From Stigmatella erecta (GTDB lineage: Bacteria > Myxococcota > Myxococcia > Myxococcales > Myxococcaceae): DNA of 64,000 bases. Shown in pieces: positions 24,177 through 64,000 of this stretch. Every line of letters begins with the position of its first letter. Position 1 is the first letter of the stretch. The position numbers and the translations under genes were made by a program. The notes under the pieces are model-generated. The model did not search any database. It was not told the DNA's origin and was given only the letters and a program-made list of their open reading frames with translations. Location: assembly GCF_900111745.1 (NCBI RefSeq), contig NZ_FOIJ01000009.1, positions 124,001-188,000 of the forward strand, given 5' to 3'.

Positions 24177-24251
24177 GCGGGAATAGCTCAGCGGTAGAGC
24201 ATCGCCTTGCCAAGGCGAGGGTCGAGGGTTCAAATCCCTTTTCCCGCTCCA
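24177..24251 (+). tRNA. tRNA-Gly (anticodon GCC)
   Basis: A complete cloverleaf. Acceptor stem GCGGGAA (24177-24183) pairs with TTCCCGC (24241-24247); D arm GCTC/GAGC; anticodon stem TCGCC/GGCGA with loop TTGCCAA, anticodon GCC; T arm GAGGG TTCAAAT CCCTT; discriminator T; and encoded CCA (24249-24251). It reads glycine codons GGC and GGU. It sits exactly at the left edge of the PKS/NRPS region. Confidence 0.97.
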
Positions 24252-30200: not shown

Positions 30201-30729
30201 CCGGCGGCAAGAAGCGGCTCGTGGCGTTCGTCTCCATCAAGCAGGAGGCGTCCGAGGAGACGCTGATCGAATTCCTGCGTGAGCGGTTGCCCTCGCACAT
30301 GCTCCCCACGCTCGTGTTGAGGGACTCGCTGCCGCTCAGCGCGAACGGCAAGGTGGACCGCAAGGCGCTGGCCGAGCTCGCGCTCGAGCAGGCTCAGCCG
30401 AAGGCTGCGTTCGTCGCGCCGGGCAGCGAGCTTGAGCTTCAAATCAGCCGGCTCGTCCAGCAGGAGCTCAAGCTCTCCGAGCTCAGTGTGGACGGCCAGT
30501 TCTTCGACCTGGGCGCGGATTCCACGGCCATCGTGCGCATCACCGCCGCGCTGCGCGAGACGTTGAAGCTCGACGTGCGCGCCACGGACCCGTTCCGCTT
30601 CCCGACGGTACGTTCGCTCGCGGCATTCCTGGCGCAGAAGGGGAGCGGGCCTGCGGCGGCAGTGCAGGCAGGGGCGGATCGCGCGGCGGCGCGGCGTGAG
30701 GCTCGCGGACGCCGCAAGGGGGCAGAAGG

Positions 30730-30733
<4 letters not shown>
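27272..30733 (+). CDS. NRPS module: docking, heterocyclisation, adenylation (Cys predicted), PCP
   Basis: An 1153-residue NRPS. Order: TubC-type N-terminal docking domain (1-62); heterocyclisation domain (about 70-490) with DLVQLDGGS, the DxxxxDxxS signature (Asp210, Asp215, Ser218) in place of HHxxxDG; adenylation domain (about 535-1010) with YTSGSTG at 689; PCP (about 1045-1115) with Ser1084 in LGADS. The specificity positions read by eye are D735, L736, Y739, N778, then L, S, A, V, W, close to the DLYNLSLIWK code of cysteine-activating domains in thiazole pathways such as epothilone. The module should add cysteine to the incoming acyl chain and cyclise it to a thiazoline. No oxidase domain is inserted, so the ring may stay a thiazoline. 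Both ends overlap neighbours by ATGA. The Pro/Ala/Arg-rich C-terminal tail may be a docking segment. Confidence 0.92.
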
Positions 30734-43701
<12,968 letters not shown>

Positions 43702-43721
<20 letters not shown>

Positions 43722-46700: not shown

Positions 46701-48531
46701 CACGCTCGACGAGGAGGCTCCGGCGCGCGTCCGCCTCCTGCTGGTGAACCCGGAAGCGGGACAGGCGCGCTTCGAACTCCACAGCGCGCTCACGTCGCAC
46801 GGGGGCCCGCCGGAGTGGAGGCGCCACTGCGCGGGCACGCTGTGCATGAGTGACGAGGATGGGGTGCAGGCCGGCGAAGCGCTGGTGCTGGACGGCATCC
46901 GCGCCCGCTGCACCACCGAGCTCTCGGCCGAAGCGTTCTACCAGTCCTATTGGGCGGACGCGGACCAGTGGTTCGGCCCGAGCTTCAAGGGGCTGACGCG
47001 AGTGTGGGGGGGTGACGGCGAGCTGCTTGCCGAAATCGAACCGACGGAAACGGGTCTCGCCGAGCCCGAAGCGGCGGGGCTCGTCGGCCGCGTGCTGACG
47101 GAGGCTTGCGCGGCGGAGGCTTGCGCGCAGTCGATGAAGGTCTTGTTCCCGAAGGAGTCCGAGTTCGCCTCGCGCGCCTACCTGGGGGTGGGCATGCAGC
47201 GCTCGCGCGGAGCCTTCCCGTCCGTGGGTGGGAAGCGCTTCGGTCACGCGCGCATGCGCCCGTCAGCTCCTGGGGAGACGCGGCTCTTCGCGGATGTGCG
47301 GCTCTTCGATGCGGACGGCCGGGTCATCACGACATACGAGGGTCTGAGCTACGCGCCCATCCAGTCCGAAGTGCTCCAGAGACTGGCGGCGCGTCCGAAG
47401 CGAGCGCGCGCCAGCGGGCCGGACCGCGCGCAACTGCTCTCGGCCGCGAGGCCGGAGCGCTCGCGCCTGTTGGAGACGTACCTCTTGCGTCAGCTGGAGG
47501 CGCTCCACGGAGCGCCCGTGCCTGGACTCGAGCCAGACGCATCGCTGGGGGAATTTGGCTTCGACTCCATCCAGTTCACCGAGCTCCGGGGGTGGATACG
47601 CAAGGATCTCGGCGTGGAGCTGCCCGCGGAGCAGCTCACGGCGGCCGCCAACCCGCGTGCCATCGCCGCGGCGCTCGCAGTGCGGCTGGCACCGGAGCCT
47701 GCTGCGGCCGCACCCGTGAGTGTCTCTGCTCCCGTGCAAGCCAGGGAGTGGATTGCCCGGTGGGATCGCCCACCGGCGGACGAGGCGCGCCTGCGCCTGT
47801 TCTGCTTCCCGTTCGCCGGAGGCGGAGCGTCCACCTACCGTGGGTGGGGCAAGGCGCTGCCGCGTGGGGTGGAGGTGTGCATCATCCAGCTCCCTGGGCG
47901 CGAGAACCGGTACAGCGAGCCGCCCGTGGAGCAGCTCTCCGTGATGCTCGACACCCTGGAGCGAGAGATGGCTCCGCTGCTGGACCTGCCCTTCGCGTTC
48001 TTCGGCACGAGCATGGGCGGCCTCCTCGCATTCGAGCTCGCGCGGCGGACCCGCGCACGCCGGGGCGTGTCGCCGGTACGGCTGTTCACCGCGGCATCGT
48101 ACGCGCCGCACCGGGGGCCGTCCGCGCCGCTCGCGGAGCTGATTCGCACGGGGGTGCACGGCGCGGACCCGGCGCTCCTGCGACGCTTCAAGGTTGTCCC
48201 GGATGCGTTGTTCGCTTCTCCGGATATGCTCAAGGTGGTGCTGCCGCCGCTCTACGCGGACCTGAGGCTCGTGCGCAGCTATCAGTACGACGATGAGCCG
48301 CCGCTCGCCTGTCCCATCACGGCCCTGTGCGGCACGCAGGACCCGATGATGACCCGCGACAACGCCGCCAGCTGGTCGCATCACACCGTGGCCGACTTCA
48401 CCTTGAGGATGATTCCGGGCGAGCACCTGTTCGTGCGGACTGCGCAGGAGGCGGTGCTCGAAGTGGTCCGCGAAGAGCTCTCGCGGCACCTGGCGCAGCT
48501 CGAGCGGGGTGTGGCGAAGGTGGCTTCGTGA
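43702..48531 (+). CDS. Terminal PKS module: KS-AT-DH(degenerate)-ACP-TE
   Basis: A 1609-residue PKS. The start is ATG 43702, inside the end of the previous gene, with GGGAG upstream; the frame itself opens earlier at 43648. An N-terminal coiled coil (11-32) is for docking. KS: Cys207, EAHGTGT, NLGHLE. AT: Ser659 in GHSVGE, HAFH at 759, malonyl type. A DH-fold domain (about 923-1223) keeps the HPLLG start and the FGPSFKGL block, but the catalytic HxxxGxxxxP reads FRVFGTIIVS (Phe958). No KR is present. ACP: Ser1289 in FGFDSIQ. Thioesterase (about 1350-1605): Ser1437 in GTSMGG and His1575 in GEHLF; the pattern PFAGGGASTY...LPGRENR resembles stand-alone type II thioesterases. It should release the finished chain, perhaps after a cyclisation by the DH-like domain. 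This gene marks the chemical end of the line, though not the end of the operon. Confidence 0.92.
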
Positions 48532-48550: not shown

Positions 48551-49708
48551 GTGAGCCAGAGCGCAAAGGCGTGGTTCCTCTACGCAGCAGACGCGGCGAG
48601 CACGGGCAAGCAGGCCGAGCTCGTCTACGGTGACCTCCCGCTGCCGGACCCCGGCCCGCGCGACGTGCTCGTCGAGCCGCTCTACGGCTCCTGGGAGGGC
48701 AATATGGGCCACTGCGTCCAGCGCAAGCCCATCGACGTCGCCCGGTTCCGTGGTGAAGAGCGTGTCGTCATCGGCAACGCGGGCGTCGTGCGCGTGCTGA
48801 GCATGGGCAACGAGGTGCGGGGCTGGAAGGAGGGGCAGTGCGCGCTCATCCTCCCCGACTCGGCGCTGGATCCCTGGGGCTACCCGACGAAGGCGTTCGC
48901 GTACGACATGGCGGGGACGACGGGCTTTCTGTCCACGCGCATGGTGCTTCCGGCGAGCGACCTCGTGCCGCTGCCCGAGAAGACACGGCACTCTTACGCC
49001 CAGTGGGCCGGGTTCTCCGCGCGCTACACCACGGCGTGGTCCAACTGGCGGCTGGCGTTCGGGACGTACCGGCTGATGGTGCCCCACGAGCGCAACCCCT
49101 CGCCAAACGTCTGGGGCTGGGGCGGGGGGACCACGCTCGCGGAGCTGGATCTCGCGCGCAGGCACGGCTGCACCACGGTGATGCTCTCGGCGTCGGACGA
49201 GCGGCTCGAACTCATCCGTCAGAGCGGCGTCACCGCGCTCGACCGGCGCCGGTTCGGCGACCTCTATTACGACGAGCTGCGCGCAGGGACCGACGGCGCC
49301 TACCGCCGAGCGTACCAACAGGCGGAGGCCGCATTCGTCCGCGAGGTGGAGGAGCGTACCGGCAAGCGGATGGTGCAGATATTCGTCGACTACATCGGCA
49401 CGCCGTTCTTCCGTGCCACGCGCCGGGTGCTCTCGCGCGAGGGCGTCATCACCACCGCCGGCTGGAAGGAGGGCATGGCCACCTCCTTCATGCGCGCCAC
49501 CGAGTGCATCGAGCGCCACCAGTACATCCACACGCACATGTGCACGCGCGAGGAGGTCCTCGCGGCCATCGAATACGGCGAGCGAGAGGGCTGGATGCCC
49601 ACCGTCGACGCGCGGATTCACGCTTTCGATGAGGTGCCTGCGCTGTCCCAGAAATTTCTCGAGGGCAACGTCGGGTTCTTCCCGGTGTTTGCGGTGAACC
49701 CGGAATGA
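48551..49708 (+). CDS. Medium-chain dehydrogenase/reductase, distantly CCR-like
   Basis: A 385-residue MDR-superfamily protein starting at GTG 48551 after AGGGAGAG. It has an N-terminal GroES-like half (to about 150) and a nucleotide-binding half with VWGWGGGTTLAELDLARRHG. No zinc-ligand Cys cluster is seen. A long insertion after the nucleotide fold (about 235-270, FGDLYYDELRAGTDGAYRRA) and the following VEERTGKRMVQIFVDYIG, VLSREGVITTAG and YIHTHMCTREE line up by eye with crotonyl-CoA carboxylase/reductases, though the match is distant. It could reduce an enoyl-CoA to an alkylmalonyl extender, or act as a trans enoyl reductase on the PKS. It lies 19 bp after the TE gene and overlaps the giant PKS start. 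Confidence 0.78.
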   Translation: MSQSAKAWFLYAADAASTGKQAELVYGDLPLPDPGPRDVLVEPLYGSWEGNMGHCVQRKPIDVARFRGEERVVIGNAGVVRVLSMGNEVRGWKEGQCALILPDSALDPWGYPTKAFAYDMAGTTGFLSTRMVLPASDLVPLPEKTRHSYAQWAGFSARYTTAWSNWRLAFGTYRLMVPHERNPSPNVWGWGGGTTLAELDLARRHGCTTVMLSASDERLELIRQSGVTALDRRRFGDLYYDELRAGTDGAYRRAYQQAEAAFVREVEERTGKRMVQIFVDYIGTPFFRATRRVLSREGVITTAGWKEGMATSFMRATECIERHQYIHTHMCTREEVLAAIEYGEREGWMPTVDARIHAFDEVPALSQKFLEGNVGFFPVFAVNPE

Positions 49709-52700
49709 GTCCGCCGGTGGGAGACATGCAGAGGCCACAGCTCGAGGGTTGGCTGCGCGTGCAGCTGGGGGCGCTGCTCGGCGTGGCGCCGGACGTGCTG
49801 GACCCATCGGCGCGCTTCAAGACGCTCGGACTTGACTCTGCGCGCGCGACCGAGCTCGTGGCCCGTCTGTCCGCGCACCTGAAGCGTGCGTTGCCGCCGA
49901 CGCTCGCGTGGGAATACCCGACGCTCGAGCGGCTTGCTGCCTACCTGACCACGAGCCCGGGCGGGGGACCGTCCGTGAAGGAGCCCGCGGCCGAAGGGGC
50001 CCGGGCCTCCGCAGAAGACGAGCCCATCGCCATTGTCGGCATCGGCTGCCGGTTCCCTGGCGGTGCGAGTTCGCCCGAGGCGTACTGGGAGCTGTTGCGC
50101 AAGGGCAAGGATGCCATCGGCGAGGTGCCCCCGGACCGCTGGAGCCTCCCCGAGTACTTCAGCCCGGATCTCACCGTTCCCGGAAAGATGAGCACCCGGT
50201 GGGGCGGGTTCCTGGATGGGGTGGATCGGTTCGATCCGCACTTCTTTGGCATCAACGCCCGCGAAGCCGCACAGATGGACCCGCAGCAGCGGCTCGCGCT
50301 GGAGCTGGCGTGGGAGGCGCTGGAGGACGCGAACATCGTCCCTGAGGCGCTGCGCGAGAGCCCCACCGGCGTCTACCTCGGCGCGATGTGGAGTGACTAC
50401 GCGCGCCTGGCCAGCGAGTGGCAGGTGGACCCGTATACGGCCACGGGCCAGGACACCAGCATCCTCGCGGGCCGCCTGTCGTATGTGCTTGGGCTTCGCG
50501 GGCCGAGCTTGGTGGTCAACACCGCGTGCTCCTCGTCGCTCGTGGCGCTGCACCTGGCATGTCAGGGGCTGCGGAGTGGGGAGGCGAGCGTGGCGCTCGC
50601 GGGCGGCATCAGCCTCATCCTGTCCCCGCTCAGCACGGTGGCGATGTCCAAGTTCGGCGCGATGGCGCCGGACGGGCGCTGCAAGGCGTTCGACGCGCGC
50701 GCCAATGGCTATGTGCGCAGCGAGGGCGGGGGCGTGGTGGTGCTCAAGCCGCTCTCCCGCGCCCTGCGCGACGGCGACCGCATCTACTGCGTGGTGCGCG
50801 GCACCGCCATCAACAACGACGGCTTCTCCAACGGCCTGACCGCGCCGAGCCCCCAGGCGCAGGAGGCCGTGCTGCGCGAGGCGTACGCGCGCGCCGGTGT
50901 ACCACCGGAGAAAGTCCACTTCGTGGAGGCCCACGGGCCGGGGACTGCACTGGGGGACCCGATCGAGGCTGGCGCACTCGGTGCTGTGCTCGGGGCGGGA
51001 CGGGTGCCGGAACATCCGTTGCGCATCGGCTCGGTGAAGACGAACCTGGGGCACCTGGAGGCCGCTGCCGGCATGGCGGGCTTGGCCAAGGTCGCGCTGC
51101 AGCTCCAACGCCGCTCTCTGGTGAAGAACCTCCACTTCGAGACGCCCAGCCCGCACATCGACTTCGAACGGCTCAAGCTGAAAGTCCAGACCGAGCGCGA
51201 GCCCTGGCCGGTGACGGGCGAGGTGCCGGTCGCAGGGGTGAGTTCGTTCGGCTTCGGAGGGACGAACGCGCATGCCGTTCTGGAGGCGGGCCCCTCGAGT
51301 CCCGCCACGCTGCTGGCGTTCGGAGCCCCGGACGCCCAGACGCTGCGCCGCCGTGTGCTCGAACTCCTGGATGCTGTTTCGGCGCTCCACGAGACGGAAG
51401 AACTCCGAGGCGTGGCCAAGGAAGCGGGCCTCTCGCTCGCGGCGGGGCCAGTGCGTGCGGCGTTCGTCGCGCGAGGCCCCGGCGAGATGGCGGAGTTGCT
51501 CTCCGCACGCCTTCGGGATGGCCGCACCGCGCCGGTGAATGGCACCCCCCACGTGTGTTTCCTGTTCCCAGGCCACGGTGCGCAGTGGGTGAGCATGGGC
51601 CGCGACCTCCTGGCCTCGTCTGAACACTTCCGCGCCGGGATGGAGGCGTGCGACCAATTGTTCCGGCCGCTCGCGGGCTGGTCTTTGCTCGACGAGCTGG
51701 TGGCTCCGCCGTCGCGCTCGCGCCTGGCGGAGGTGGACGTCGTCCAGGCGGTGCTGTTCGCTATTGAGGTGTCGCTCGCGTCGCTGTGGCGCTCTTTCGG
51801 CGTGCGTGCGGATTCGGTCGTTGGGCACAGCGTGGGCGAGGTCGCCGCGGCCCATGTCGCAGGCATCCTGTCGCTGGAAGACGCGGTGAAGGTCATCCAC
51901 GAGCGCGGGGTCCTCACGCGTGAGCTTGCGGGGAAGGGCGGGATGGTGTGGCTCGCGCTGGGCGCGCAGGACGCCTTGGCGCTCGTGCGCGAGCTTGGTG
52001 TGGAGCTCGTGCTCGGCGCGGAGAACGGCCCGCGTTCCAGCGTGCTGTCTGGCGGCGAGGAGGCGCTCGCGTCGCTGCTCGCCGTGCTCGCGTCGCGCGG
52101 GATTCGCGGGGGCCGCGTGAACATCGCGTTCGCGTCGCACAGCCCGCAGATGGATGTGCTGCTCGCCCGGTTCGAGGAGCGGCTCGCCGGGATTCGGCCG
52201 CGGCAGAGCCGCGTGGAGATGGTGTCCACCGTCACTGGCGCTGTGCTCGCCGGGCCCGAGTGTGACGCGGCCTACTGGGCGAGGAACCTGCGGCAGCAGG
52301 TGCGCTTCTCCGCCGCCATCGGCGCGGTGCTCAAGCGCCCCGGGGCGCTCTGCGTGGAGGTGAGCCCGCATGCGACGCTTGAGCGGCTCGTCCAAGAGAA
52401 CAGCCCGAGGGGCGCATCCACGCCCGTCTTCGCGTCGTTCCGGCGTGGCGAGGACGCGCTCGGGGGCTTGTTGTCCACGCTTGGGGCGCTGTACGAGCGG
52501 GGTGTGTCGCCCGACTGGGAGGGCGTGTATCCAGGGGTGCGCGCGCAGCCTCTGCCCGAGGCGCTCCGGGTGCGACGGCCGGACGTGGATGCGCCGGCGG
52601 GGCCCGCGGTGGTGCTGCCGCTCTCTGCGAAGAGTCCGGGCTCGTTGCGCACGCTTGCGCAGCGCTTGCGCGAGTTCCTCCGCTTACCGGAGGGCGGCTC

Positions 52701-55700
52701 GCCCGTGGACCTCGCGTTCACCGCGGGGTTGAAGCGCACGCACCACGAGCTGCGGGTGGCCGTGACGGGAAGCACCCGGGGTGAGCTGGCGGATGCGCTG
52801 GAAGCGTGGTTCGCGGCTGGCGAGGACCCTCCGAAGCCGCCTCTTGGGCGGCGGCCACGCGTCGCCTTTGTCTTCCCGGGACAGGGTTCGCAGTGGGCCG
52901 GGATGGCCGTCCGGCTGATGCAGGAAGAGGCCGTCTTTCGTGACGCCCTTCATCGGTGCGACGCGGCCATCCTGAAGGTCGCAGGCTGGTCCCTGCTCGA
53001 GGAGCTGCGTGTGCCCGAGCAGACGTCCCGGCTCACCGGCGACGTGGAGGTGATTCAGCCGGCGCTCTTCTCCGTGCAGGTGGCGCTGGCAGCCCAGTGG
53101 CGCGCGTGGGGCGTGGAGCCGGCTGCGGTGGTGGGCCATAGCATGGGCGAGGTGGGCGCGGCACACGTCGCCGGTGTGCTGTCGCTGGAGGACGCGGTCC
53201 GCATCATCTGTGTGCGCAGCCGGCTGGCGAAGCGCACCAGCGGCCACGGCGCGATGGCGCTGGTGGAGCTGAGCGCGGACGCGCTGGGCACGTACCTGGC
53301 CCCCGTCGTGGACAAGGTCTCGGTCGCGGCGGTCAACGGGCCCTCGACGACGCTCCTCTCGGGCGAGGCGGAGGCTGTCGACGCGCTGCTCGTCACGCTT
53401 GAGGCGCAGGGCGTGTTTTGCCGCCGCGTGAAGGTGGACTACGCGTCTCACAGCCCCCAGATGGATGCGCTCCGGGAGGACATGCTCGGCGAGCTGAATT
53501 CCGTCCGCGCACAGGCGGGGGCCGTGCCCATCCGCTCGACGGTCACCGGCGCATGGACGGACGGGCGCGAGATGTCCGGCGCCTACTGGTTCGACAACAT
53601 CCGCATGCCGGTCCAGTTCTATCCGGCGGTGCGTGCGCTGGTGGAGGAGGGCTTCGACGCGCTCGTCGAACTCAGCCCGCATCCGGTCCTCGTCCCGGCC
53701 CTTGAGCAGAGCGTGCGCCATCTCGGCTCCCCGGCGCGGGTGCTCGCCTCGCTGCGGCGCGGCCAGGACGAACGGAGTGAGCTGCTCGCGGGGGTGGCGG
53801 CGCTGTACGCCCGCGGAGTGGACGTCGCGTTCGAGCGGCTCTCTCCACCAGGTGCCAGGGCCGTCCCACTTCCCACCTACCCATGGGACAAGGCCCGGTA
53901 TTGGCTTGAGCCCGCGACGGAAGAGGCGGGGCCTGTGCGCGCGCTGCACGGCCGGCGCGTGCAAAGCCCTGGGCGCGATGCGCACTTCGTGTGCCCGGTG
54001 GGCGTCGAACATCAGCCTTACCTCGCGGACCACCGCGTGTTCGGTGACGTCGTGGTGCCTGGGGCGTTCTACGTCACTGCGCTGGTGTCGGCGGCCACGG
54101 AGGTTCTCGCTGGAGCGGAGGTGACGCTCGAGCAGGTGGAGATTCCACGGGCTTTACCCCTCGCGGGTGGGCGCTCGGAGCGCCTCCACCTGCTGCTCAC
54201 GCCGGATGAGGCCGGTGCGGCGCACGAGGCCTCGGCGTCCACGGCGGGCGTGGACCCGGAGGAGCCCTGGAGGCGGCACGCGCGAGGGCGTCTAACGCAG
54301 GGCAGGGCGCTCGGGCACGGCGAGTCTCTGGCTGCCGTGCAGGCCCGTTGCCGTCGCGCGGCGGACCCCGAGCGGTTCTATGCAGACCTCGCGGACCGAG
54401 GGATCGAACTGCACCCGCGGTTCCAGGGAATTGGCCAGCTGTGGATCGCCGAGGGCCAAGCGCTCGCAAGGCTCGAGCCCGATGCGGAACTGGGCATTCG
54501 CGTGGCCCTGTTGCACCCGGCCGAGCTGGACGCGTGCATCCAGACGTTGATTGCGGCCGCGCCTGGATTGGAGGCGGGGAAGGCGTTCGTCCCCTTCGCG
54601 CTTGAGCGGCTGACCGTGAGCACGGGCGCCGGCCGGCCAGCCTTTTGCCACGCGGTCGTGCGTACGAACTCGGGGGAGGCCTGCCTCGGAGACCTGTGCG
54701 TCTTCGACGAAGCGGGAAGGGTCATCGCCGAGGTGGAAGGGCTCCAGCTCAAGCAGGCCGTGCGGGAGCGGTTCGGGGCGGCGCAGGAGGCCGCCGAGAC
54801 GGAGATGGCGCTGGAGGCCGCGTGGTTGCGTCAGGACCGGGCGCAGGCGACAGCACATGCGCCGGGGCGATGGGTGCTCTGTGCCGACGATGCGGGCCCT
54901 GCCGACGCGCTGGCGCAGACGCTCCGCTCGCACGGCGCCGAGGTGTTGCGGCTCCCGCTTTCGGGACGTGACGGCGCAGCGGTACTTGAGGGGACGCTGC
55001 GCGGTGTGGTGGTGATGGCAGGCCACTCCTCCGATGTGCAGGCGTTCGGTTCGGCTGTTGCCTGGATTCGGGCGATGGCCCGCGCCGCGCGCCGGGACCC
55101 ACCGCGGCTTTACCTGGTGACGCGGGCAACACAGCAGGCTCCGGGGGACGAGGTCGTCCTTCCGGAACTCGCGGTGCTCTGGGGCCTCGGCCGCACGGTG
55201 GCCTACGAGCACCCGGAGTTGCGGTGTGCGCGAGTCGATCTTCCCGCATCGCCGCTGGAGAGAGAGGCGGACGCACTGGCCGCAGAGCTCCTCTCCGGTG
55301 ATGTGGAGGAGGAGATCGCTCTGCGCGCAACGGGCCGTCACGTGGGCCGGCTCATGCGGATCTCGCGCCGTGTGCTGCCGCCTCCGGTGCTCGCTGGCGA
55401 TGGCACGTACCTTGTCACGGGCGGCCTCGGTGGCCTCGGGCTTCTTGCCGCGCGGTGGCTCGTCGAGAACGGGGCGCGCCAACTGGCCCTCGTGGGGCGG
55501 AACAGGTCACCCACGGCGCAGCAACTTGATGCCCTCCGCGCCCTTGAGCAAGAAGGCGCCATCGTCCATTTGCTGTCCTGCGACGTCTCCGACGCCACCC
55601 AGGTGGAGCGGTTGCTCGCGGACATCGCTCAGCAGCTGCCTCCGCTCAAGGGCGTCATTCACGCGGCGGGCATGCTCGAGGACGCGCTCCTCGTGGACCA

Positions 55701-58700
55701 GGACGCCGAGCTGTACCGCCGCGTGGCCGCCGCGAAGGTGCTCGGTGCGTACCACCTCCACCGCTTCACCCGTGGCCTCGCGCTGGACTTCTTCGTCCTC
55801 TACTCCTCGGTGACGTCCGTCCTTGGCTCGCCAGGCCAAGCGAACTACGCCGCGGCGAATGCGTCGCTGGACGCGCTCGCGCGGCACCGCCGGACGTTGG
55901 GACTCCCGGCGCTGAGCATCAACTGGGGGCCGTTCGCCGGTGTGGGGCTCGCGGCGGCCCAGGAAAACCGCGGTGCGCGTCTCGCCTCGCGGGGGCTGCG
56001 CAGTTACTCCGCGGATGAGGGCATGGCGCTGCTCGGACGCGCGCTCGGGGTGCGCGGTGCGCAGGCTATCGTGGCGGATCTCGACGAGCGCCAGTGGATG
56101 GAGTTCTACCCTCAGGCTGCGGGCTCACCGTGGCTGCAGGGGCTTCTGGCGCCGCGCAGGGCGCGGCCCTCCGCGAAGCCGGCGCGCGCCGTGCTGCAGC
56201 AGCGGCTCGCAGCGGCCGAGCCCTCCAAGCGCCCCGCGCTGCTCGAGGAGTGGCTGCGTGAGCTGCTGGCGCAGGTGCTGCGAATCGAAAGCCGCTCCAT
56301 CGAGAGCGATGCTCCCTTCAAGACGCTTGGCTTGGATTCGCTGGCCGGGCTAGAGCTTCGCAACCGGCTCGAGGCCGCGCTCGGGCAGCGGCTGCCGGCG
56401 ACGCTCGTCTGGACATACCCGCACCTTGGCGCGCTCGCCGGATATCTCTCGACACGCGTCGAGGTGGAGCTCGCGGCGAGCGTGGATGCTACCGCCGGCA
56501 GAACCGCCGCACTCCTGGCCTCGGGAGCCCCTGCTGGGCAGCAGGGTGCGGACGGCATCGCCATCATCGGCATGGGCTGTCGCTTCCCGGGTGGCGGAGT
56601 AGACCCCGAGGCGTATTGGCGCGCGTTGTCGCAAGGGGTGGATGCGGTGAAGCCGCTGCCACCGTCCCGCTGGCCCAGTGGGCGGATGCCGCTTGCGCCC
56701 GGGGGGCAGTACGCGGCCTTGCTCGACGACGTCGAGGGCTTCGACGCCGCGTTCTTCGGCATCTCCTCGCGCGAGGCGGCGGCGATGGACCCGCAGCAGC
56801 GGTTGCTGCTCGAGGTGGCGTGGGAGGCGCTCGAGGACGCGCACCAACTCCCCGAGCGGCTCGTGGGCTCTAAGACGGGAGTGTTCGTCGGGCTGATGAA
56901 CGACGACTACAACCTCGAGGGGCTCGCGCTGGCACCGCAGGAGCGCGACGTCTACTCGACCACCGGCAATGGCCACAGCTTCGCGGCGGGGCGTCTGTCG
57001 TACGCGCTCGGGCTTCAGGGTCCTTCGCTTTCGGTCGACACCGCGTGTTCGTCCTCCGCGGTGGCAGTGCACCTCGCGTGTCAGAGCCTCAAGTCCGGGG
57101 AGAGTGCGCTGGCGATCGCGGGCGGCGTCAACCTCATCCTCTCGCCGCACTCGATGGACATGGTGGCGCGGACGCAGGCGCTGTCTCCGGATGGGCGCTG
57201 CCGCACGTTCGATGCGCGTGCGAACGGCTTCGTGCGGGGCGAGGGGTGTGGCGTCCTCGTGCTCAAGCGGCTTGAGGACGCGCTCGCGGACGGCGACCCC
57301 ATCTGTGCCGTCATCCGCGGGTCCGCGGTCAATCAGGATGGCCGCTCCACCGGGCTCACCGTGCCCAACGTCCTCTCCCAGCGGGCGCTGCTCCAGGAAG
57401 CGCTGAGGAGCGCGCGCGTCGCGCCGTCCGAGGTCGGCTACGTGGAGGCGCACGGCACGGGCACGTCGCTCGGCGACCCCATCGAGTTCGAGGCGCTCAA
57501 GGACGTCCTCGGGCAGCCGCGCGCCGGCGGGCAGCCGTGCGTGCTCGGCTCCGTGAAGACGAACATCGGGCATCTCGAGTCCGCGGCCGGCGTGGCCGGG
57601 ATCATCAAGGCGGTGCTCGCGCTCAAGCACGGCGTACTCCCGCGGCACCTGCACTTCCAGGCGCTCAACCCGCGCATGTCGCTGGATGGGACGCCGTTCG
57701 TCATCCCGACGGAAGAGTTCCGCTGGCCAGCAGGGGAGAAGCGCCGCATCGCTGGTGTCTCGTCGTTTGGCCTCAGCGGGACCAATGCGCACCTGATCCT
57801 TGAGGAGGCGCCGCGCTCTGCGGCTGAGCCCTCGCAGGCTGGCAGCCCCGCTGCATACCTGTTGGCGCTGTCCGGCCGCAGTCCGGCGGCATTGACCGCG
57901 CTGGCGGCCCGCTACGCGCGCCACCTTGAGGCCGCCCCGGCCGCGGACGTGTGCTTCACGGCCGCAACGAAGCGTACGCATCACGCGCACCGGCTGGCCG
58001 TGGCCGGCAGGACGCCGGAGGAGTTGAGGCAACGCCTTGAGGCCCTGGCCGCGGGTGAGTCGCCGGCGTTCTGCTCTCGCAGTCCTGTCGAGCGGCCCCA
58101 GGGACTGAGAGTCTGGGTCTTCCCAGGCCAGGGCAGCCAGTGGGCTGGGATGGGGCGTCAGCTCCTGGAGCGCGAGCCCGCGTTCCGCTCCGCGCTGGAG
58201 GCCACCGCGCGAGCGATCCAGCCGCTCACGGGCTGGGACGCAGTGGAATTGCTGCGCGCGCCGGACCTGGCGGCACAGCTCGAGCGGGTCGAGGTGGTGC
58301 AGCCGCTCCTGTTCGCCATGCAGGTGGCACTTGCCGCGCAGTGGCGGGCGTGGGGCGTGGAGCCGGACGCCGTCCTCGGGCACTCGATGGGCGAGGTCGC
58401 GGCGGCGCATGTGGCAGGAGCGATCTCTCTCGAGGACGCAGCGCGCATCATCTGCGTGCGCAGCGCCGCGGTGGCCACCGTGCAGGGCCAAGGCGGGATG
58501 GCGCTGGTCGAGCTTGGCCGCGAGGAGGCCGAAGCGCGGCTGCGCGGCTACGAAGACCGCCTCGCGGTGGCTGCGGACAACGGGCCACGCACCAGCGTGC
58601 TCTCGGGGGACCTGAGGGCGCTCGAAGAGGTGCTCGCGGGCCTGGAGCGAGACGGCGTCTTCTGCCGCAAGGTGAAGGTGACGTACGGCTCCCACAGCCC

Positions 58701-61700
58701 GCAGATGGATGCGCTCAAGGCGCCACTCCTGGCTCAGCTCACGGACGTCACGCCGCAGCGCGCACAGGTGATGATGATCTCGTCCGTCACTGGGCGGCGC
58801 GTGGCGGGAGAGGAGCTGACGGCAGCGTACTGGGTGAACAACCTGCGCGAGCCCGTGTGCTTCTGGGGTGCGGTACAGTCTCTCGCGCGCGAGGGCTGCG
58901 CGTCGTTCCTTGAGGTTAGCCCGCACCCAGTGTTGTTGCCGGCCATCCGGGAGGGACTCAGCTCGCTCGGGGTGGAGGCGGCGGACCTGCCCACGCTCAG
59001 GCGCGACGACGACGAGTCGGTCTCGATGCTCGCGACGCTGGGCGCTGCGTATGCGCTGGGGCAGCCGGTCCGGCTCGAGGCGCTGTTCCGCGAGGGGGCG
59101 AAGCCCGCCCCGCTTCCCGGCTATCCCTGGGACCGCAAGCGTTTCTGGTGGAGCGCACCTCGCGTCTCGGACCGTGTGGAAGACGCCGCCGTCGAACCGG
59201 GCAGCGCGTTACACGGCAGGCGCGTGAGCAGCCCCGGGCGCGAAGTCCTTTTCGTGTCGAGCGTGGGCACAGCGCTGCAGCAGTATCTCGGCGAGCACCA
59301 CGTCCATGGCCAGCTCATTGTTCCGGGCGCTTACCATCTGGCTGCCGTCATGAGTGCCGCGGCCGATGCGTTCGGCGCCACCGCGCTGACGTTGGAGCAG
59401 ACCGAGCTGCCGTCTCCGTTGCTCCTGGAGGAGGGGGACACGGCGCGCCTGCACGTGCTGCTGACGCCTGCCGCCCACGGCTCCGCCCACACATTCTCCA
59501 CCGCGAGCACGGCCTCGGACACCTTCCATACGCACGCCAGGGGTGAAATCAGCGCCGGAGCGCAGCTCGGAGCTTCCGAGCCGCTTGAGGCTGTCCGGGC
59601 CCGGTGCACGGAGGAGGCGCAGACCGAGCAGTGGTACGAAGAACTGCGGAGCCGCGGCATCGCGCTCGGGCCTTCGCTCCAGTCGGTGCGGCAGATGTGG
59701 CGCGCTCCGGGGGAGGCACTCGGAAGGATTGAACTCGCGGTCCCCTCCAGCCGAGGGAGCCTGCTGCACCCGCTCGAACTGGACGGATGCCTTCAGACGC
59801 TGGTCGCCGCGGCACCCTCGCTCCCGGCGGGCCAGGCGTTCATTCCCTTCGCGCTCGAGCGGCTGCGGTTCTTCGGCCGCGGCGAAGGCCCACGCTTCTG
59901 CCACGCGGCGCTGCGCAGCGTCTCCGAGGAGGCGTGTGTGGGCAACCTTCGCGTCTTCGACGAGGCCGGTGAGTTGGTGCTGGAAGTCGATGGGTTGCAG
60001 CTCAAGCGTGCGGATCCGGCAGCCCTGCGGAACGACGCGCGCGCGTGGCAACAGTGGGCGTGGGAGGTGGGCTGGGAGCAGGCCTCTCTGCCGGCAGCAC
60101 GGACGCGTGGAGGCCGTTACTGGCTGCACGGTGACGGCGCGGAACTCACGGCCGATGTCCAGCGCGCCCTTGAAGCTGCTGGCGCGCATGTGGAGCGGCT
60201 GGACGCCGCAGCAAGCGCCGGGCGTCTGCGCCGCGAAGCAGAAGGACTGAGTGGAGCCGTCGTCGTGCTCAGCGGCGCGGAAGGGACGTACGCCGCTGCG
60301 TACGCGACGGCGCTCGATTGGATGCAAGCGCTCTGCGGCGCCGAACTCAGGGACGTGCCTCGCCTGTGGGTGGTCACGCAAGGCACGCAGCAGGTGCGGC
60401 CGAACGACGCGGTCCGTCCCGACGGAGCCGTGGCATGGGGGCTTGCGCGCACCGTGGCCTACGAGCATTCCGAGCTGCACTGCACGCGGCTGGACGTGGA
60501 AGGCCGGCCAGGTGATGGTGAGCACGTCGCCAGGGAGGTGCTGGCAGCAGGCCCCGACGAGGAGGTGGCCCTGCGGGAAGGCGCGCGCTTCGTGGGACGG
60601 CTCCGGCGGGTCCGCCGCAGCGGCACCACGCGCACGTGGCACATCGACCCTGCGGGCGTCTATCTGGTGACTGGCGGCCTTGGCGGCCTGGGGCTCGAGG
60701 CGGCGCGGTGGCTCGTGGCCCGGGGAGCGCACAACCTGGTGCTGCTCGGCCGCGAGGGCGCGCGGACGCCCGAGCAAAAGCAGGCAGTCAGCGCGCTCGG
60801 AGCGCAAGTCGAAGTCGCGTGCGTGGACGTCGCGGATGAGGTGGAGCTCGCGCGGCTCTTGGAGCGGCTCGGTGAGCGGCTGCGCGGTGTGGTGCATGCC
60901 GCGGGCGTCATCGACGACGCGCTCCTCGAGACCCAGGACGCCGCGCGCTTCGAGCGCGTGGCACGCCCGAAGGTGCAAGGAGTGAGACTCCTGGACCAGT
61001 TGACGCGGCGGCACGCGCTCGACTTCTTCGTCGCCTATTCGTCCGTGGCGTCGGTCCTGGGCTCACCTGGCCAGAGCAACTACGCCGCGGCCAACGCCTA
61101 CGTGGATGCGGTGTGCCTTGGGCGGCGCGCCCAGGGCTTGCCGGCCGTGAGCATCAACTGGGGCCCGTTCTCGGGCGTCGGGCTGGCGGCGGCCGAGGAA
61201 CAGCGGGGCCGGCGGCTGGCGGCACGCGGACTGCGTAGCTTTGGCCCGGAGGAGGGGACGGCCCTGCTCGACGGCGTCCTCGGGTCCGTCCAGGGACAGC
61301 TCGCACTGATGGACATCGACGGGAGGCAATGGCGCGAGTTCTATCCGCAGGTGGCGGCGAGCCGTCGTCTGGAGGCCCTCTTTCAGGGCACTGCGCAGGC
61401 CTCATGGACGCCCTCCACGCAGGGGGCTTCGATGCTCCTGCCGTCACTGCGCCGCGCCCAGGTGGGCCAGCGCCCCGCGCTCGTGGAGCAGTTCGTACGC
61501 GAGCAGCTGGGCCAGGTGTTGCGGCACGACGATGTCCGTGCCATCGAGCGCAGCGCGCCCCTGCGCAGTCTGGGGCTGGACTCGTTGATGGCGCTGGAGT
61601 TGCGCAACCGGCTCGAGGCGGGCCTCGGGTTCAAGCTTCCGGCGACGGTGGCATTCTCGGTTCCTCACCTCGCGGGGCTGGTGGAGCACCTGCTCGGCCG

Positions 61701-64000
61701 CGTGGCCGAGTCGCTCGCGGAGGAGCCTAGAGCAGTGCCGGGCGCCCCTGTCGCGAAGCCGGCGCCCGTCACCCCCATGGCCCCGGAGTCCATCGCCATC
61801 GTGGGGCTCGGCTGCCGCTTCCCGGGTGGCGCGAAGGACCCAGAGTCCTACTGGCAGCTTCTCGAGGGCGGCGTGGATGCGGTGAAGGAGATTCCCGCCT
61901 CGAGGTGGCCTGGAGGGCGGCCGCCCGTGCTCGCCGGTGCGCGGTGGGCGGCGCTGTTGGATGCGGTGGACGGCTTCGATGCGGGGTTCTTCGGCGTCTC
62001 ACCGCGTGAAGCGGCGGGGCTCGATCCGCAGCACCGCCTGCTGCTCGAAGTCGCCTGGGAGGCGCTCGAACACGGGCACCAGGTTCCAGACCGGCTCGTG
62101 GGCAGCAAGACCGGCGTCTTCGTCGGCATCATGAGCCAGGACTACAACCTGCGGACGCTCGCGCTACCGGCGAACCAGCTCGACATCTATTCCAGCACCG
62201 GCAACGGGCACGCGTTCGCGGCGGGGCGCATCTCCTACCTGCTTGGGCTGCAGGGCCCCTGCCTCTCGGTGGACACGGCGTGTTCCTCGTCGCTCGTGGC
62301 GCTGCACCTGGCGTGTCAGAGCCTGCGCAGCGGCGAGAGCGACCTCGCGCTCGCGGGAGGCGTGAACCTCATCCTGTCGCCACTATCAATGGAGGTGGTT
62401 GCGCGTACGCAGGCGCTATCGCCGGACGGCCGCTGCCGCGCGTTCGACGCGCGCGCGAACGGCTTCGTGCGCGGCGAGGGCTGCGGGGTGGTGGTCCTCA
62501 AGCGGCTCTCGGATGCTGTGCGCGACGGGGACCGTATCTGGGCGGTGGTGAAGGGCTCGGCGGTGAATCAGGACGGGCAGTCCAGCGGCCTCACGGCGCC
62601 GAACGGGCGCGCTCAGGAGTCTCTCCTGCGCACGGCACTGGAGGGTGCGGGCGTGAAGCCGGAGCAGGTGGGGTACGTGGAGGCTCACGGAACCGGCACG
62701 TCGCTCGGCGACCCCATCGAGTTCGAGGCCCTTGCCAACGTGTTCGGAGGGGCGCGGAGCGATGGCTCGGTCTGTGCCATCGGCTCGGTGAAGACGAACA
62801 TCGGGCACCTTGAAGCCGCGGCGGGAATGGCAGGGCTCATCAAGGCGGTGCTCGCGCTGCAGCACGAAGCGATTCCGAAGCAATTGCACTTCGAGGCGCT
62901 CAATCCGCGGATGACCCTGGAGGGTACTCCGTTCTCCATCGCCTCCGCGCCGCGTGCATGGCGGAAGGGGACGCAGCCTAGAGTCGCGGGGGTGAGCTCG
63001 TTCGGCTTGAGCGGTACGAACGCGCACGTGCTGCTCGAGGAGCCGCCGTTGCAAACGCACGCGGCGGATGCCGCGGTCCACGACGGTGCGCTCTTGCTGC
63101 CGCTCTCCGCGAAGAGTGAGGCGGCACTGCGCGAACGGGCGCTCGCGTTCGCACGCCACGTCTCGGGCGCGGACCGCGCGAGGCTTCGCGACATTTGCGC
63201 TACGGCGGGGGGGCGGCGCAGTCACCACACGCACCGCTTCGCGGCCGTTGGCACGAGCGCGGGAGAGCTGAGTGAACGTCTCGAGGCGCTTGCGCGAGGC
63301 GAGTTGCGCCCGGGATGCACGCGTGGAGACAGCGCACTCGCGGGACGTGGGCGCGTGTTCGTGTTCCCGGGGCAGGGGAGTCAGTGGATTGGGATGGGGC
63401 GCCGGTTGATGGCGGAGGCTCCCTTCCGTGACGCGCTCTCGCGCTGCGCCGAGGCACTCCGGCCGCACGTGGGATGGGATCTCCTCGAGGTGCTTGCGTC
63501 CGAGGGGTTGCCTGCGCTGTTGGAGCGCGTCGAGGTGGTGCAGCCGCTGCTCTTCGCGATGCAAGTGTCCCTGGCGGCGCAGTGGCGCGCGTGGGGCCTG
63601 ACGCCGGATGCAGTGGTGGGCCACAGCATGGGCGAGGTCGCCGCCGCGCACGTGGCGGGCGCGCTCTCGCTGGAGGACGCGGCGAGCGTCATCTGCCTGC
63701 GCAGCGCGGCGGTCGCAACCGTCGAGGGCCAGGGCGGCATGGCGCTGGTCGAGCTGTCGCGAGAGCAACTCGGCCAGCGGCTGAAGGGCCAGGAGTCACT
63801 CCTCGCGGTCGCAGCCCAGAACGGACCGAGGTCGAGCGTCGTCTCGGGCGATGTGATGGCGCTGGAGGCGCTGCTCGAGCGCCTCGAGGCGGAGGGCATC
63901 TTCTGCCGCCGGGTGAAGGTGACGTACGCGTCACACAGTCCTCAGATGGAGCCGCTCACGCCCGTGCTGCTCGCAAGCCTCCGCGGCCTTCAGCCGATGC
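49705..64000 (+). CDS. Giant PKS, ACP-KS-AT-AT-DH-KR-ACP-KS-AT-DH-KR-ACP-KS-AT... (runs off window)
   Basis: One uninterrupted frame from ATG 49705 to the window end, at least 4765 residues. The start overlaps the reductase stop (ATGA); an in-frame ATG at 49726 is the alternative. The protein begins with an ACP rather than a docking helix, and its first module has two AT domains. This ACP-KS-AT-AT order is the split loading arrangement known from myxobacterial pathways such as myxothiazol and stigmatellin, where one AT loads the starter onto the N-terminal ACP. This gene is therefore the likely start of the assembly line although it lies last in the visible operon. Modules 1 and 2 both carry complete DH and KR domains and methylmalonyl-type ATs, so a chain of alpha-methyl conjugated double bonds is expected. 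Module entries give residues. Confidence 0.95.
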   Translation, partial: MSPPVGDMQRPQLEGWLRVQLGALLGVAPDVLDPSARFKTLGLDSARATELVARLSAHLKRALPPTLAWEYPTLERLAAYLTTSPGGGPSVKEPAAEGARASAEDEPIAIVGIGCRFPGGASSPEAYWELLRKGKDAIGEVPPDRWSLPEYFSPDLTVPGKMSTRWGGFLDGVDRFDPHFFGINAREAAQMDPQQRLALELAWEALEDANIVPEALRESPTGVYLGAMWSDYARLASEWQVDPYTATGQDTSILAGRLSYVLGLRGPSLVVNTACSSSLVALHLACQGLRSGEASVALAGGISLILSPLSTVAMSKFGAMAPDGRCKAFDARANGYVRSEGGGVVVLKPLSRALRDGDRIYCVVRGTAINNDGFSNGLTAPSPQAQEAVLREAYARAGVPPEKVHFVEAHGPGTALGDPIEAGALGAVLGAGRVPEHPLRIGSVKTNLGHLEAAAGMAGLAKVALQLQRRSLVKNLHFETPSPHIDFERLKLKVQTEREPWPVTGEVPVAGVSSFGFGGTNAHAVLEAGPSSPATLLAFGAPDAQTLRRRVLELLDAVSALHETEELRGVAKEAGLSLAAGPVRAAFVARGPGEMAELLSARLRDGRTAPVNGTPHVCFLFPGHGAQWVSMGRDLLASSEHFRAGMEACDQLFRPLAGWSLLDELVAPPSRSRLAEVDVVQAVLFAIEVSLASLWRSFGVRADSVVGHSVGEVAAAHVAGILSLEDAVKVIHERGVLTRELAGKGGMVWLALGAQDALALVRELGVELVLGAENGPRSSVLSGGEEALASLLAVLASRGIRGGRVNIAFASHSPQMDVLLARFEERLAGIRPRQSRVEMVSTVTGAVLAGPECDAAYWARNLRQQVRFSAAIGAVLKRPGALCVEVSPHATLERLVQENSPRGASTPVFASFRRGEDALGGLLSTLGALYERGVSPDWEGVYPGVRAQPLPEALRVRRPDVDAPAGPAVVLPLSAKSPGSLRTLAQRLREFLRLPEGGSPVDLAFTAGLKRTHHELRVAVTGSTRGELADALEAWFAAGEDPPKPPLGRRPRVAFVFPGQGSQWAGMAVRLMQEEAVFRDALHRCDAAILKVAGWSLLEELRVPEQTSRLTGDVEVIQPALFSVQVALAAQWRAWGVEPAAVVGHSMGEVGAAHVAGVLSLEDAVRIICVRSRLAKRTSGHGAMALVELSADALGTYLAPVVDKVSVAAVNGPSTTLLSGEAEAVDALLVTLEAQGVFCRRVKVDYASHSPQMDALREDMLGELNSVRAQAGAVPIRSTVTGAWTDGREMSGAYWFDNIRMPVQFYPAVRALVEEGFDALVELSPHPVLVPALEQSVRHLGSPARVLASLRRGQDERSELLAGVAALYARGVDVAFERLSPPGARAVPLPTYPWDKARYWLEPATEEAGPVRALHGRRVQSPGRDAHFVCPVGVEHQPYLADHRVFGDVVVPGAFYVTALVSAATEVLAGAEVTLEQVEIPRALPLAGGRSERLHLLLTPDEAGAAHEASASTAGVDPEEPWRRHARGRLTQGRALGHGESLAAVQARCRRAADPERFYADLADRGIELHPRFQGIGQLWIAEGQALARLEPDAELGIRVALLHPAELDACIQTLIAAAPGLEAGKAFVPFALERLTVSTGAGRPAFCHAVVRTNSGEACLGDLCVFDEAGRVIAEVEGLQLKQAVRERFGAAQEAAETEMALEAAWLRQDRAQATAHAPGRWVLCADDAGPADALAQTLRSHGAEVLRLPLSGRDGAAVLEGTLRGVVVMAGHSSDVQAFGSAVAWIRAMARAARRDPPRLYLVTRATQQAPGDEVVLPELAVLWGLGRTVAYEHPELRCARVDLPASPLEREADALAAELLSGDVEEEIALRATGRHVGRLMRISRRVLPPPVLAGDGTYLVTGGLGGLGLLAARWLVENGARQLALVGRNRSPTAQQLDALRALEQEGAIVHLLSCDVSDATQVERLLADIAQQLPPLKGVIHAAGMLEDALLVDQDAELYRRVAAAKVLGAYHLHRFTRGLALDFFVLYSSVTSVLGSPGQANYAAANASLDALARHRRTLGLPALSINWGPFAGVGLAAAQENRGARLASRGLRSYSADEGMALLGRALGVRGAQAIVADLDERQWMEFYPQAAGSPWLQGLLAPRRARPSAKPARAVLQQRLAAAEPSKRPALLEEWLRELLAQVLRIESRSIESDAPFKTLGLDSLAGLELRNRLEAALGQRLPATLVWTYPHLGALAGYLSTRVEVELAASVDATAGRTAALLASGAPAGQQGADGIAIIGMGCRFPGGGVDPEAYWRALSQGVDAVKPLPPSRWPSGRMPLAPGGQYAALLDDVEGFDAAFFGISSREAAAMDPQQRLLLEVAWEALEDAHQLPERLVGSKTGVFVGLMNDDYNLEGLALAPQERDVYSTTGNGHSFAAGRLSYALGLQGPSLSVDTACSSSAVAVHLACQSLKSGESALAIAGGVNLILSPHSMDMVARTQALSPDGRCRTFDARANGFVRGEGCGVLVLKRLEDALADGDPICAVIRGSAVNQDGRSTGLTVPNVLSQRALLQEALRSARVAPSEVGYVEAHGTGTSLGDPIEFEALKDVLGQPRAGGQPCVLGSVKTNIGHLESAAGVAGIIKAVLALKHGVLPRHLHFQALNPRMSLDGTPFVIPTEEFRWPAGEKRRIAGVSSFGLSGTNAHLILEEAPRSAAEPSQAGSPAAYLLALSGRSPAALTALAARYARHLEAAPAADVCFTAATKRTHHAHRLAVAGRTPEELRQRLEALAAGESPAFCSRSPVERPQGLRVWVFPGQGSQWAGMGRQLLEREPAFRSALEATARAIQPLTGWDAVELLRAPDLAAQLERVEVVQPLLFAMQVALAAQWRAWGVEPDAVLGHSMGEVAAAHVAGAISLEDAARIICVRSAAVATVQGQGGMALVELGREEAEARLRGYEDRLAVAADNGPRTSVLSGDLRALEEVLAGLERDGVFCRKVKVTYGSHSPQMDALKAPLLAQLTDVTPQRAQVMMISSVTGRRVAGEELTAAYWVNNLREPVCFWGAVQSLAREGCASFLEVSPHPVLLPAIREGLSSLGVEAADLPTLRRDDDESVSMLATLGAAYALGQPVRLEALFREGAKPAPLPGYPWDRKRFWWSAPRVSDRVEDAAVEPGSALHGRRVSSPGREVLFVSSVGTALQQYLGEHHVHGQLIVPGAYHLAAVMSAAADAFGATALTLEQTELPSPLLLEEGDTARLHVLLTPAAHGSAHTFSTASTASDTFHTHARGEISAGAQLGASEPLEAVRARCTEEAQTEQWYEELRSRGIALGPSLQSVRQMWRAPGEALGRIELAVPSSRGSLLHPLELDGCLQTLVAAAPSLPAGQAFIPFALERLRFFGRGEGPRFCHAALRSVSEEACVGNLRVFDEAGELVLEVDGLQLKRADPAALRNDARAWQQWAWEVGWEQASLPAARTRGGRYWLHGDGAELTADVQRALEAAGAHVERLDAAASAGRLRREAEGLSGAVVVLSGAEGTYAAAYATALDWMQALCGAELRDVPRLWVVTQGTQQVRPNDAVRPDGAVAWGLARTVAYEHSELHCTRLDVEGRPGDGEHVAREVLAAGPDEEVALREGARFVGRLRRVRRSGTTRTWHIDPAGVYLVTGGLGGLGLEAARWLVARGAHNLVLLGREGARTPEQKQAVSALGAQVEVACVDVADEVELARLLERLGERLRGVVHAAGVIDDALLETQDAARFERVARPKVQGVRLLDQLTRRHALDFFVAYSSVASVLGSPGQSNYAAANAYVDAVCLGRRAQGLPAVSINWGPFSGVGLAAAEEQRGRRLAARGLRSFGPEEGTALLDGVLGSVQGQLALMDIDGRQWREFYPQVAASRRLEALFQGTAQASWTPSTQGASMLLPSLRRAQVGQRPALVEQFVREQLGQVLRHDDVRAIERSAPLRSLGLDSLMALELRNRLEAGLGFKLPATVAFSVPHLAGLVEHLLGRVAESLAEEPRAVPGAPVAKPAPVTPMAPESIAIVGLGCRFPGGAKDPESYWQLLEGGVDAVKEIPASRWPGGRPPVLAGARWAALLDAVDGFDAGFFGVSPREAAGLDPQHRLLLEVAWEALEHGHQVPDRLVGSKTGVFVGIMSQDYNLRTLALPANQLDIYSSTGNGHAFAAGRISYLLGLQGPCLSVDTACSSSLVALHLACQSLRSGESDLALAGGVNLILSPLSMEVVARTQALSPDGRCRAFDARANGFVRGEGCGVVVLKRLSDAVRDGDRIWAVVKGSAVNQDGQSSGLTAPNGRAQESLLRTALEGAGVKPEQVGYVEAHGTGTSLGDPIEFEALANVFGGARSDGSVCAIGSVKTNIGHLEAAAGMAGLIKAVLALQHEAIPKQLHFEALNPRMTLEGTPFSIASAPRAWRKGTQPRVAGVSSFGLSGTNAHVLLEEPPLQTHAADAAVHDGALLLPLSAKSEAALRERALAFARHVSGADRARLRDICATAGGRRSHHTHRFAAVGTSAGELSERLEALARGELRPGCTRGDSALAGRGRVFVFPGQGSQWIGMGRRLMAEAPFRDALSRCAEALRPHVGWDLLEVLASEGLPALLERVEVVQPLLFAMQVSLAAQWRAWGLTPDAVVGHSMGEVAAAHVAGALSLEDAASVICLRSAAVATVEGQGGMALVELSREQLGQRLKGQESLLAVAAQNGPRSSVVSGDVMALEALLERLEAEGIFCRRVKVTYASHSPQMEPLTPVLLASLRGLQPM
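49732..49950 (+). other. N-terminal loading ACP of the giant PKS
   Basis: Residues about 10-82 form an acyl carrier protein with phosphopantetheine Ser45 in LGLDSARATEL and the usual second helix, ending at PTLERLAAYL. Its place before the first KS, without its own AT, marks it as the starter carrier of a split loading module. Confidence 0.85.
50020..56460 (+). other. Module 1 of the giant PKS: KS-AT-AT-DH-KR-ACP
   Basis: KS (106-535): Cys275 (NTACSSS), His410 in HGPGT, NLGHLE. First AT (613-930): Ser709 in GHSVGE; specificity FASH (809-812); its GQGSQ block is GHGAQ. Second AT (1053-1370): Ser1146 in GHSMGE; YASH (1246-1249), methylmalonyl type. DH: His1443 in HRVFGDVVVP and Asp1609 in ELDACIQ, intact. 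KR: GGLGGLG near 1905, stereo-motif LED, Tyr2048. ACP: Ser2212. One AT should load the starter on the N-terminal ACP and the other should load the extender; by analogy the more divergent first AT is the loader. Confidence 0.87.
56551..61710 (+). other. Module 2 of the giant PKS: KS-AT-DH-KR-ACP
   Basis: KS (2286-2700): Cys2448, EAHGTGT, NIGHLE. AT (2802-3119): Ser2894 in GHSMGE; specificity YGSH (from Tyr2994), a one-residue variant of methylmalonyl YASH. DH: His3198 in HHVHGQLIVP and Asp3360 in ELDGCLQ, intact. KR: GGLGGLG near 3655, stereo-motif IDD (B-type), Tyr3793 in SNYAAAN. ACP: Ser3960 in LGLDSLM. Expected product: one alpha-substituted, probably methylated, trans double bond. Confidence 0.88.
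61786..64000 (+). other. Module 3 of the giant PKS: KS-AT (cut by window end)
   Basis: KS (4029-4450): Cys4193, EAHGTGT, NIGHLE all intact. AT (from 4551): FPGQGSQW, Ser4641 in GHSMGE and YASH (4741-4744), methylmalonyl type. The window ends inside the AT, so its reductive domains are unknown. Confidence 0.9.

Follow-up and report, generated by a model that had tools for sequence, protein, structure and literature searches.

The region analysed here, which we refer to as the window, is a stretch of 64,000 nucleotides (C9:124001-188000) from the 9.21-Mb genome of Stigmatella erecta. The flank to the right of the window was also retrieved, and domains were assigned throughout by Pfam and motif mapping. 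Eight genes, A to H, occupy positions 24588-73676 and are all encoded on the forward strand (Table 1). The A domain of the NRPS encoded by gene B appears to be Cys-like, and the nearest solved relatives of this protein include BmdB and the Cy domain of EpoB. A Cy motif in gene B, upstream of the ending modules, marks it as a heterocyclising NRPS. Gene A probably encodes a non-extending relay module, given that its KS carries Gln in place of the second His and its AT is dead. A KS without the second His is expected of a relay module. The same Gln was observed in all four genomes that carry the cluster, and the dN/dS of this KS is 0.15.

Table 1. Features of the gene A-H locus, in window coordinates; positions above 64,000 lie in the right flank.
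Feature	Position	Strand	Description
tRNA-Gly(GCC), left	24177-24251	+	Located with ARAGORN and blastn
Gene A	24588-27275	+	KS-AT0-ACP; KS second His replaced by Gln; AT truncated, without Ser
Gene A dead AT	26247-26606	+	GKGAGE, no Ser nucleophile
Gene B, NRPS	27272-30733	+	TubC-type beta-hairpin docking domain, Cy (DLVQLDGGS), A (residues DLYN-LS-A-VW), PCP
Gene C	30730-35292	+	KS-AT(malonyl, HAFH)-KR-ACP
Gene D	35289-43721	+	D1 KS-AT0-ACP (GHG for GHS, truncated); D2 KS-AT(VAGHS)-DH-KR-ACP
D1 dead AT	36954-37337	+	GHGVGV, no Ser nucleophile
Gene E, terminal module	43648 (or 43702)-48531	+	KS-AT(malonyl)-DH0-ACP-TE; DH without His
TE, C-terminus of gene E	47758-48507	+	GTSMGG
Gene F, stand-alone MDR protein	48551-49708	+	Distant crotonyl-CoA carboxylase/reductase relative
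Gene G	49705-68286	+	ACP-KS-AT-AT-DH-KR-ACP, then modules 2 and 3; extends past window end
Loading ACP (ACP_L)	49732-49953	+	Motif LGLDS; N-terminus of gene G, no preceding docking domain
KS1, first condensing KS	50011-51294	+	Triad Cys-His-His: TACSSS / EAHGPGT / KTNLGH
AT-a, putative starter-loading AT	51550-52464	+	GHSVGE...FASHS; Arg retained
AT-b, extender AT	52861-53769	+	GHSMGE...YASHS; methylmalonyl type (YASH)
DH of module 1	53920-54684	+	Domain mapping
KR of module 1	55390-55959	+	Domain mapping
ACP1 of module 1	about 56245-56469	+	Domain mapping
Gene G modules 2 and 3, within window	56557-64000	+	KS-AT-DH-KR-ACP; KS-AT-DH-ER-KR-ACP
Gene H	68283-73676	+	KS-AT0-DH-KR-ACP
Gene H dead AT	69960-70808	+	GYGAGE, no Ser nucleophile
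tRNA-Gly(GCC), right	73772-73846 (L009:12772-12846)		Identical to left copy, 75/75

Gene G encodes a PKS of 6193 residues, and its translation together with the domain mapping gave the order ACP-KS-AT-AT-DH-KR-ACP for the first module. The original prediction described a giant PKS that opens with an ACP and has KS-AT-AT in its first module; this order is confirmed, and the module proved to be complete, also carrying a DH, a KR and an ACP of its own. An N-terminal ACP followed by a KS and then by two ATs is the arrangement of a split loading module, and dual-AT loaders that open with an ACP have been described in the ajudazol, aurafuron, chondramide and gulmirecin pathways (PMC10646177). The serine of ACP_L is kept in all four genomes. 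The catalytic triad of KS1 is intact, which would make this domain competent for condensation, and the catalytic residues are retained in both AT-a and AT-b. The two ATs are 43% identical to each other, so a recent or assembly duplication is excluded. The tandem recurs at 93-95% identity in three further genomes, each assembled independently, and on this ground the possibility of an assembly artefact was rejected. Compared with G079, the genome from the other genus, dN/dS is 0.16 for AT-a and 0.16 for AT-b, so both have been kept by purifying selection. We hypothesise, with a probability of roughly three in four, that positions 49705-56469 encode the split loading module and first extension module of a hybrid PKS/NRPS assembly line in which the genes are arranged in a different order from that in which they work.

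The sole TE domain detected in 141 kb around the window is the C-terminus of gene E. As predicted, it lies two genes upstream of the giant PKS, with the small gene F intervening, and the giant PKS does run to the right of the window, where further PKS sequence follows in gene H. The PKS line ends with gene H, at 73676, without the second TE that had been named as a sign of two pathways. Gene G starts directly with an ACP and has no docking segment, which indicates that it takes no upstream donor, while gene A opens with a docking-like segment and a KS and so needs one. Each half of the gene set supplies what the other half misses, and with the proteins acting in the sequence G, H, A, B, C, D, E each is used a single time, between a single start and a single TE. 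The proposal that synthesis begins at 49705, continues to the right and returns to the genes at 24588-48531 is therefore supported, with the handover from gene H to gene A as the step that we infer. The C-terminus of gene H has no recognisable docking tail after its ACP, and neither a TE nor a release domain, so the contact between H and A would be made without a sequence signature and is the weakest link in the order. At the next junction the C-terminus of gene A is an acidic stretch, GTEEREVIEL, which could be the partner motif for the docking domain of gene B; beta-hairpin docking domains of the TubC type recognise short motifs at the C-terminus of their partners (review PMC9113145).

The order of genes A-H is unchanged in G037, G036 and G079, with 88-95% DNA identity, giving four genomes from two genera in all, and every gene is under purifying selection. 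The alignment to G079 spans 24385-73684, with nothing beyond it in the 70 kb compared, and that to G036 spans 24543-73668; the left flank is also shared by G037. The preservation of both order and gene set in four genomes, with flanks that differ in two of them (G079 and G036), argues for one pathway acting as a functional unit. The presence of the cluster in at least four myxobacteria also provides a firm starting point for product prediction.

Gene F was rejected as a true crotonyl-CoA carboxylase/reductase (CCR), as it scored 47 bits against the curated CCR model TIGR01751, for which the cut-off is 378. The profile of its family does match the CCR 4gi2 over the full length (1.1e-9), and by these comparisons gene F would be classed as a CCR relative only. 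Members of this CCR-like MDR family (~385 residues) are 45-97% identical across myxobacteria and several adjoin Cy-A NRPS or PKS genes; among the curated NCBIfam models none matched the family above its own cut-off. It is possible that gene F makes an unusual malonyl unit for D2, where the AT motif VAGHS differs from both the malonyl HAFH and the methylmalonyl YASH. This raises the question of whether the locus holds two linked lines, with G and H building an acyl precursor of their own (such as a 2-enoyl thioester for gene F to convert to the unusual malonyl unit for D2) and A-E forming the product line. Something like a separate precursor line has reportedly been proposed for icumazole. The position of gene F, exactly between the TE and the loader, and the divergent D2 motif would both suit such an arrangement. 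In addition, a distinctive CCR family is named in the title of a 2023 paper on icumazole (cited in PMC12800573). However, A-E would then be left without a starter, as gene A has a KS with a dead AT and no loading domain. Four modules, as in G and H, would also greatly exceed the requirements of a small precursor, and the end of gene H carries nothing to release one. We consider this arrangement unlikely and favour a single line running from gene G to gene E.

Among the 47 KS domains placed in a tree, those from all sampled ACP-KS-AT-AT modules, KS1 included, formed a single clade with support of 100/100, in agreement with the earlier suggestion that this layout loads and starts synthesis as in other myxobacterial pathways. 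Among its members is the KS of a 4011-residue, MtaB-like protein of G038. A Cy-A NRPS follows this protein, in keeping with MtaB of myxothiazol. The entry G079_44377, labelled as a 'split' KS in the tree, is gene H, in which the AT carrying the deletion appears as two fragments, and was not counted in the clade. In the AT tree AT-a joined the first ATs of the ACP-KS-AT-AT tandem of G039/G041 (98/94) and fell outside the extender ATs, from which it is thus distinct, with the caution that long branches meet at this point; AT-b was placed among the extender ATs. A grouping of both ATs with non-loading duplicates, which the original prediction had taken as the mark of separate pathways, was not found. 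Of the two trees, that of the KSs gives the stronger support for a loader.

Both trees support the predicted tandem-AT loader, with the correction that AT-a retains the Arg that binds the free carboxylate of malonyl units and is in this respect atypical. This Arg is present in AT-b of every sampled tandem, while the first AT has Q, Y or E at this position in all but the window cluster and G039/G041. Loss of the Arg is usual for a first AT and does not define it, and its retention in AT-a marks a variant and does not exclude the module from split loading modules; it does mean that the loading role of AT-a is argued from position and tree. A first AT without the malonyl-binding Arg loads a monocarboxylic starter. 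Since AT-a keeps the Arg, the starter here is more likely to be a malonyl-type unit that is then decarboxylated. Across the sampled tandem-AT modules one residue sorts the loaders into two kinds, those with Q, Y or E in the first AT and those with Arg, and this split provides two testable kinds. The retained Arg would also be expected if AT-a were an ordinary duplicated extender AT, the N-terminal ACP a relic and the starter supplied from elsewhere. The placement of KS1 in the split-loading clade, the low identity and equal constraint of AT-a and AT-b and the conserved serine of ACP_L all speak against this, and we regard it as very unlikely; AT-a is better read as the starter-loading domain.

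The 49,520 bases between the two tRNA-Gly genes hold only genes A-H, and the same pair brackets the block in G037. In G036 the second tRNA copy matches at 94.5%, and the intact tRNA is found ~55 kb away from the block, beside a tyrosine integrase (C2:1794482-1794979). G038, a genome of the same genus that is without the block, carries a truncated integrase (C1:6693940-6694245) near the same tRNA. Copies of 27 bp of the tRNA 3' end were observed in G036 and G038, the latter also near this tRNA, and no such tRNA was found near the block in G079. The arrangement looks like insertion at a tRNA hotspot and suggests how such clusters move between species. That the genes with the TE and the right-hand PKSs are two independent pathways, neighbours by chance with the stand-alone enzyme gene and the TE between them, is strongly disfavoured and scarcely credible, as four genomes from two genera keep the halves together and in sequence, with unrelated surroundings in two, and identical tRNA-Gly genes enclose the whole set in two.

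In the proposed pathway AT-a would charge the N-terminal ACP with the starter, which KS1 would accept, and AT-b would load ACP1 with the first extender, of methylmalonyl type, to give an enoyl chain through the action of the DH and KR. Further elongation would take place on gene G module 2 (DH-KR) and module 3 (DH-ER-KR) and on gene H (DH-KR), after which the chain would pass to gene A, which most likely only relays it. The NRPS of gene B would add and cyclise a cysteine. C, D1, D2 and E would then add four C2 units, bearing in turn a hydroxyl, a keto, an ene and a keto group, the last assigned to gene E because it has no KR and a DH without the His. Ring closure by an aldol reaction of C2 with C7, together with lactone formation at the C9 alcohol, would generate an 8-hydroxyisochroman-1-one with a thiazol(in)e at C3. 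The TE would thus close the chain to what is most likely a 3-thiazol(in)yl-8-hydroxyisochromanone, similar to the ending of ajudazol.

A TE promoting isochromanone formation is named for ajudazol in the title of Buntin et al. 2010 (cited in PMC6616573). The reductive pattern at the end of the present line, KR, none, DH-KR and no active reduction, followed by the TE, corresponds to an ajudazol-type ending (KR / none / DH-KR / DH-TE), and in both it stands behind a Cy-A NRPS; the sequences were compared with the cluster of G006, a genome from another genus of the family. This colinear cluster (G006:C1:9025994-9106241) appears to be ajudazol-like and ends in Cy-A, ..., KS-AT-KR, KS-AT-ACP-KS-AT-DH-KR, KS-AT-DH-ACP-TE. 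Gene E shares 52% identity with its G006 homologue along its entire length, and in the KS tree the D2 and E domains are paired with the last two KSs of the G006 cluster (100/96 and 100/98). In contrast, the D2 AT motif VAGHS is YASHS in G006. The present line also differs from an ajudazol-type line in its permuted DNA order, its single amino-acid module and the dead ATs of D1, H and A. Ajudazol contains an oxazole, whereas the A domain here appears Cys-like. The Cy-A protein of G006 shows an apparent insertion in its A domain, which is Ox-like by position.

The loader itself shares with other myxobacterial split loaders (ajudazol, aurafuron, chondramide, gulmirecin and MtaB-like) the domain order, the intact KS triad, the KS clade and an extender-type AT-b. 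It differs in the Arg of AT-a, where most sampled first ATs have Q, Y or E, and in having its gene downstream of that for the TE. The loader is of a known kind, and the assembly line looks like a new variant. In icumazole, from Sorangium, a non-terminal TE reportedly divides the line. Icumazole would share with the present locus the isochromanone product family, a distinctive CCR and a TE placed before the end of the gene set.

The ATs of A, D1 and H lack the catalytic Ser in all four genomes. In gene H ~79 residues of the AT have been lost in frame in the three relatives, and the copy in the window is longer. The KSs of D1 and H are strongly constrained, with dN/dS of 0.07-0.13. With dead ATs in D1 and H the proposed line depends on an outside supply, and these two modules would receive malonyl from an AT acting in trans; three stand-alone ATs encoded at other sites in the genome (C7:69162, C15:127120 and C19:37626) could serve them. 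In most modules of the cluster the AT is intact, and the cluster contains no discrete AT gene; it does not qualify as a trans-AT PKS. The locus presents a natural series of dying ATs in a conserved cis-AT line, which bears on the origin of AT-less modules. A fuller picture can be drawn, in which a permuted assembly line with a malonyl-type starter makes a predicted thiazolyl-isochromanone, an undescribed product, from a mobile, tRNA-bracketed cassette of 49.5 kb. Three of its ATs would be dead, with one still being deleted in some species and the neighbouring KSs constrained, so that the line would be caught part-way from cis-AT to trans-AT. In its entirety this picture is tentative.

The same genome contains two more ACP-KS-AT-AT loaders, on contig 14 (L092:10978-14922) and contig 1 (L093:14689-18348). 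Two Cy-A NRPSs come after the contig 1 loader, and this locus resembles a myxothiazol-type cluster.
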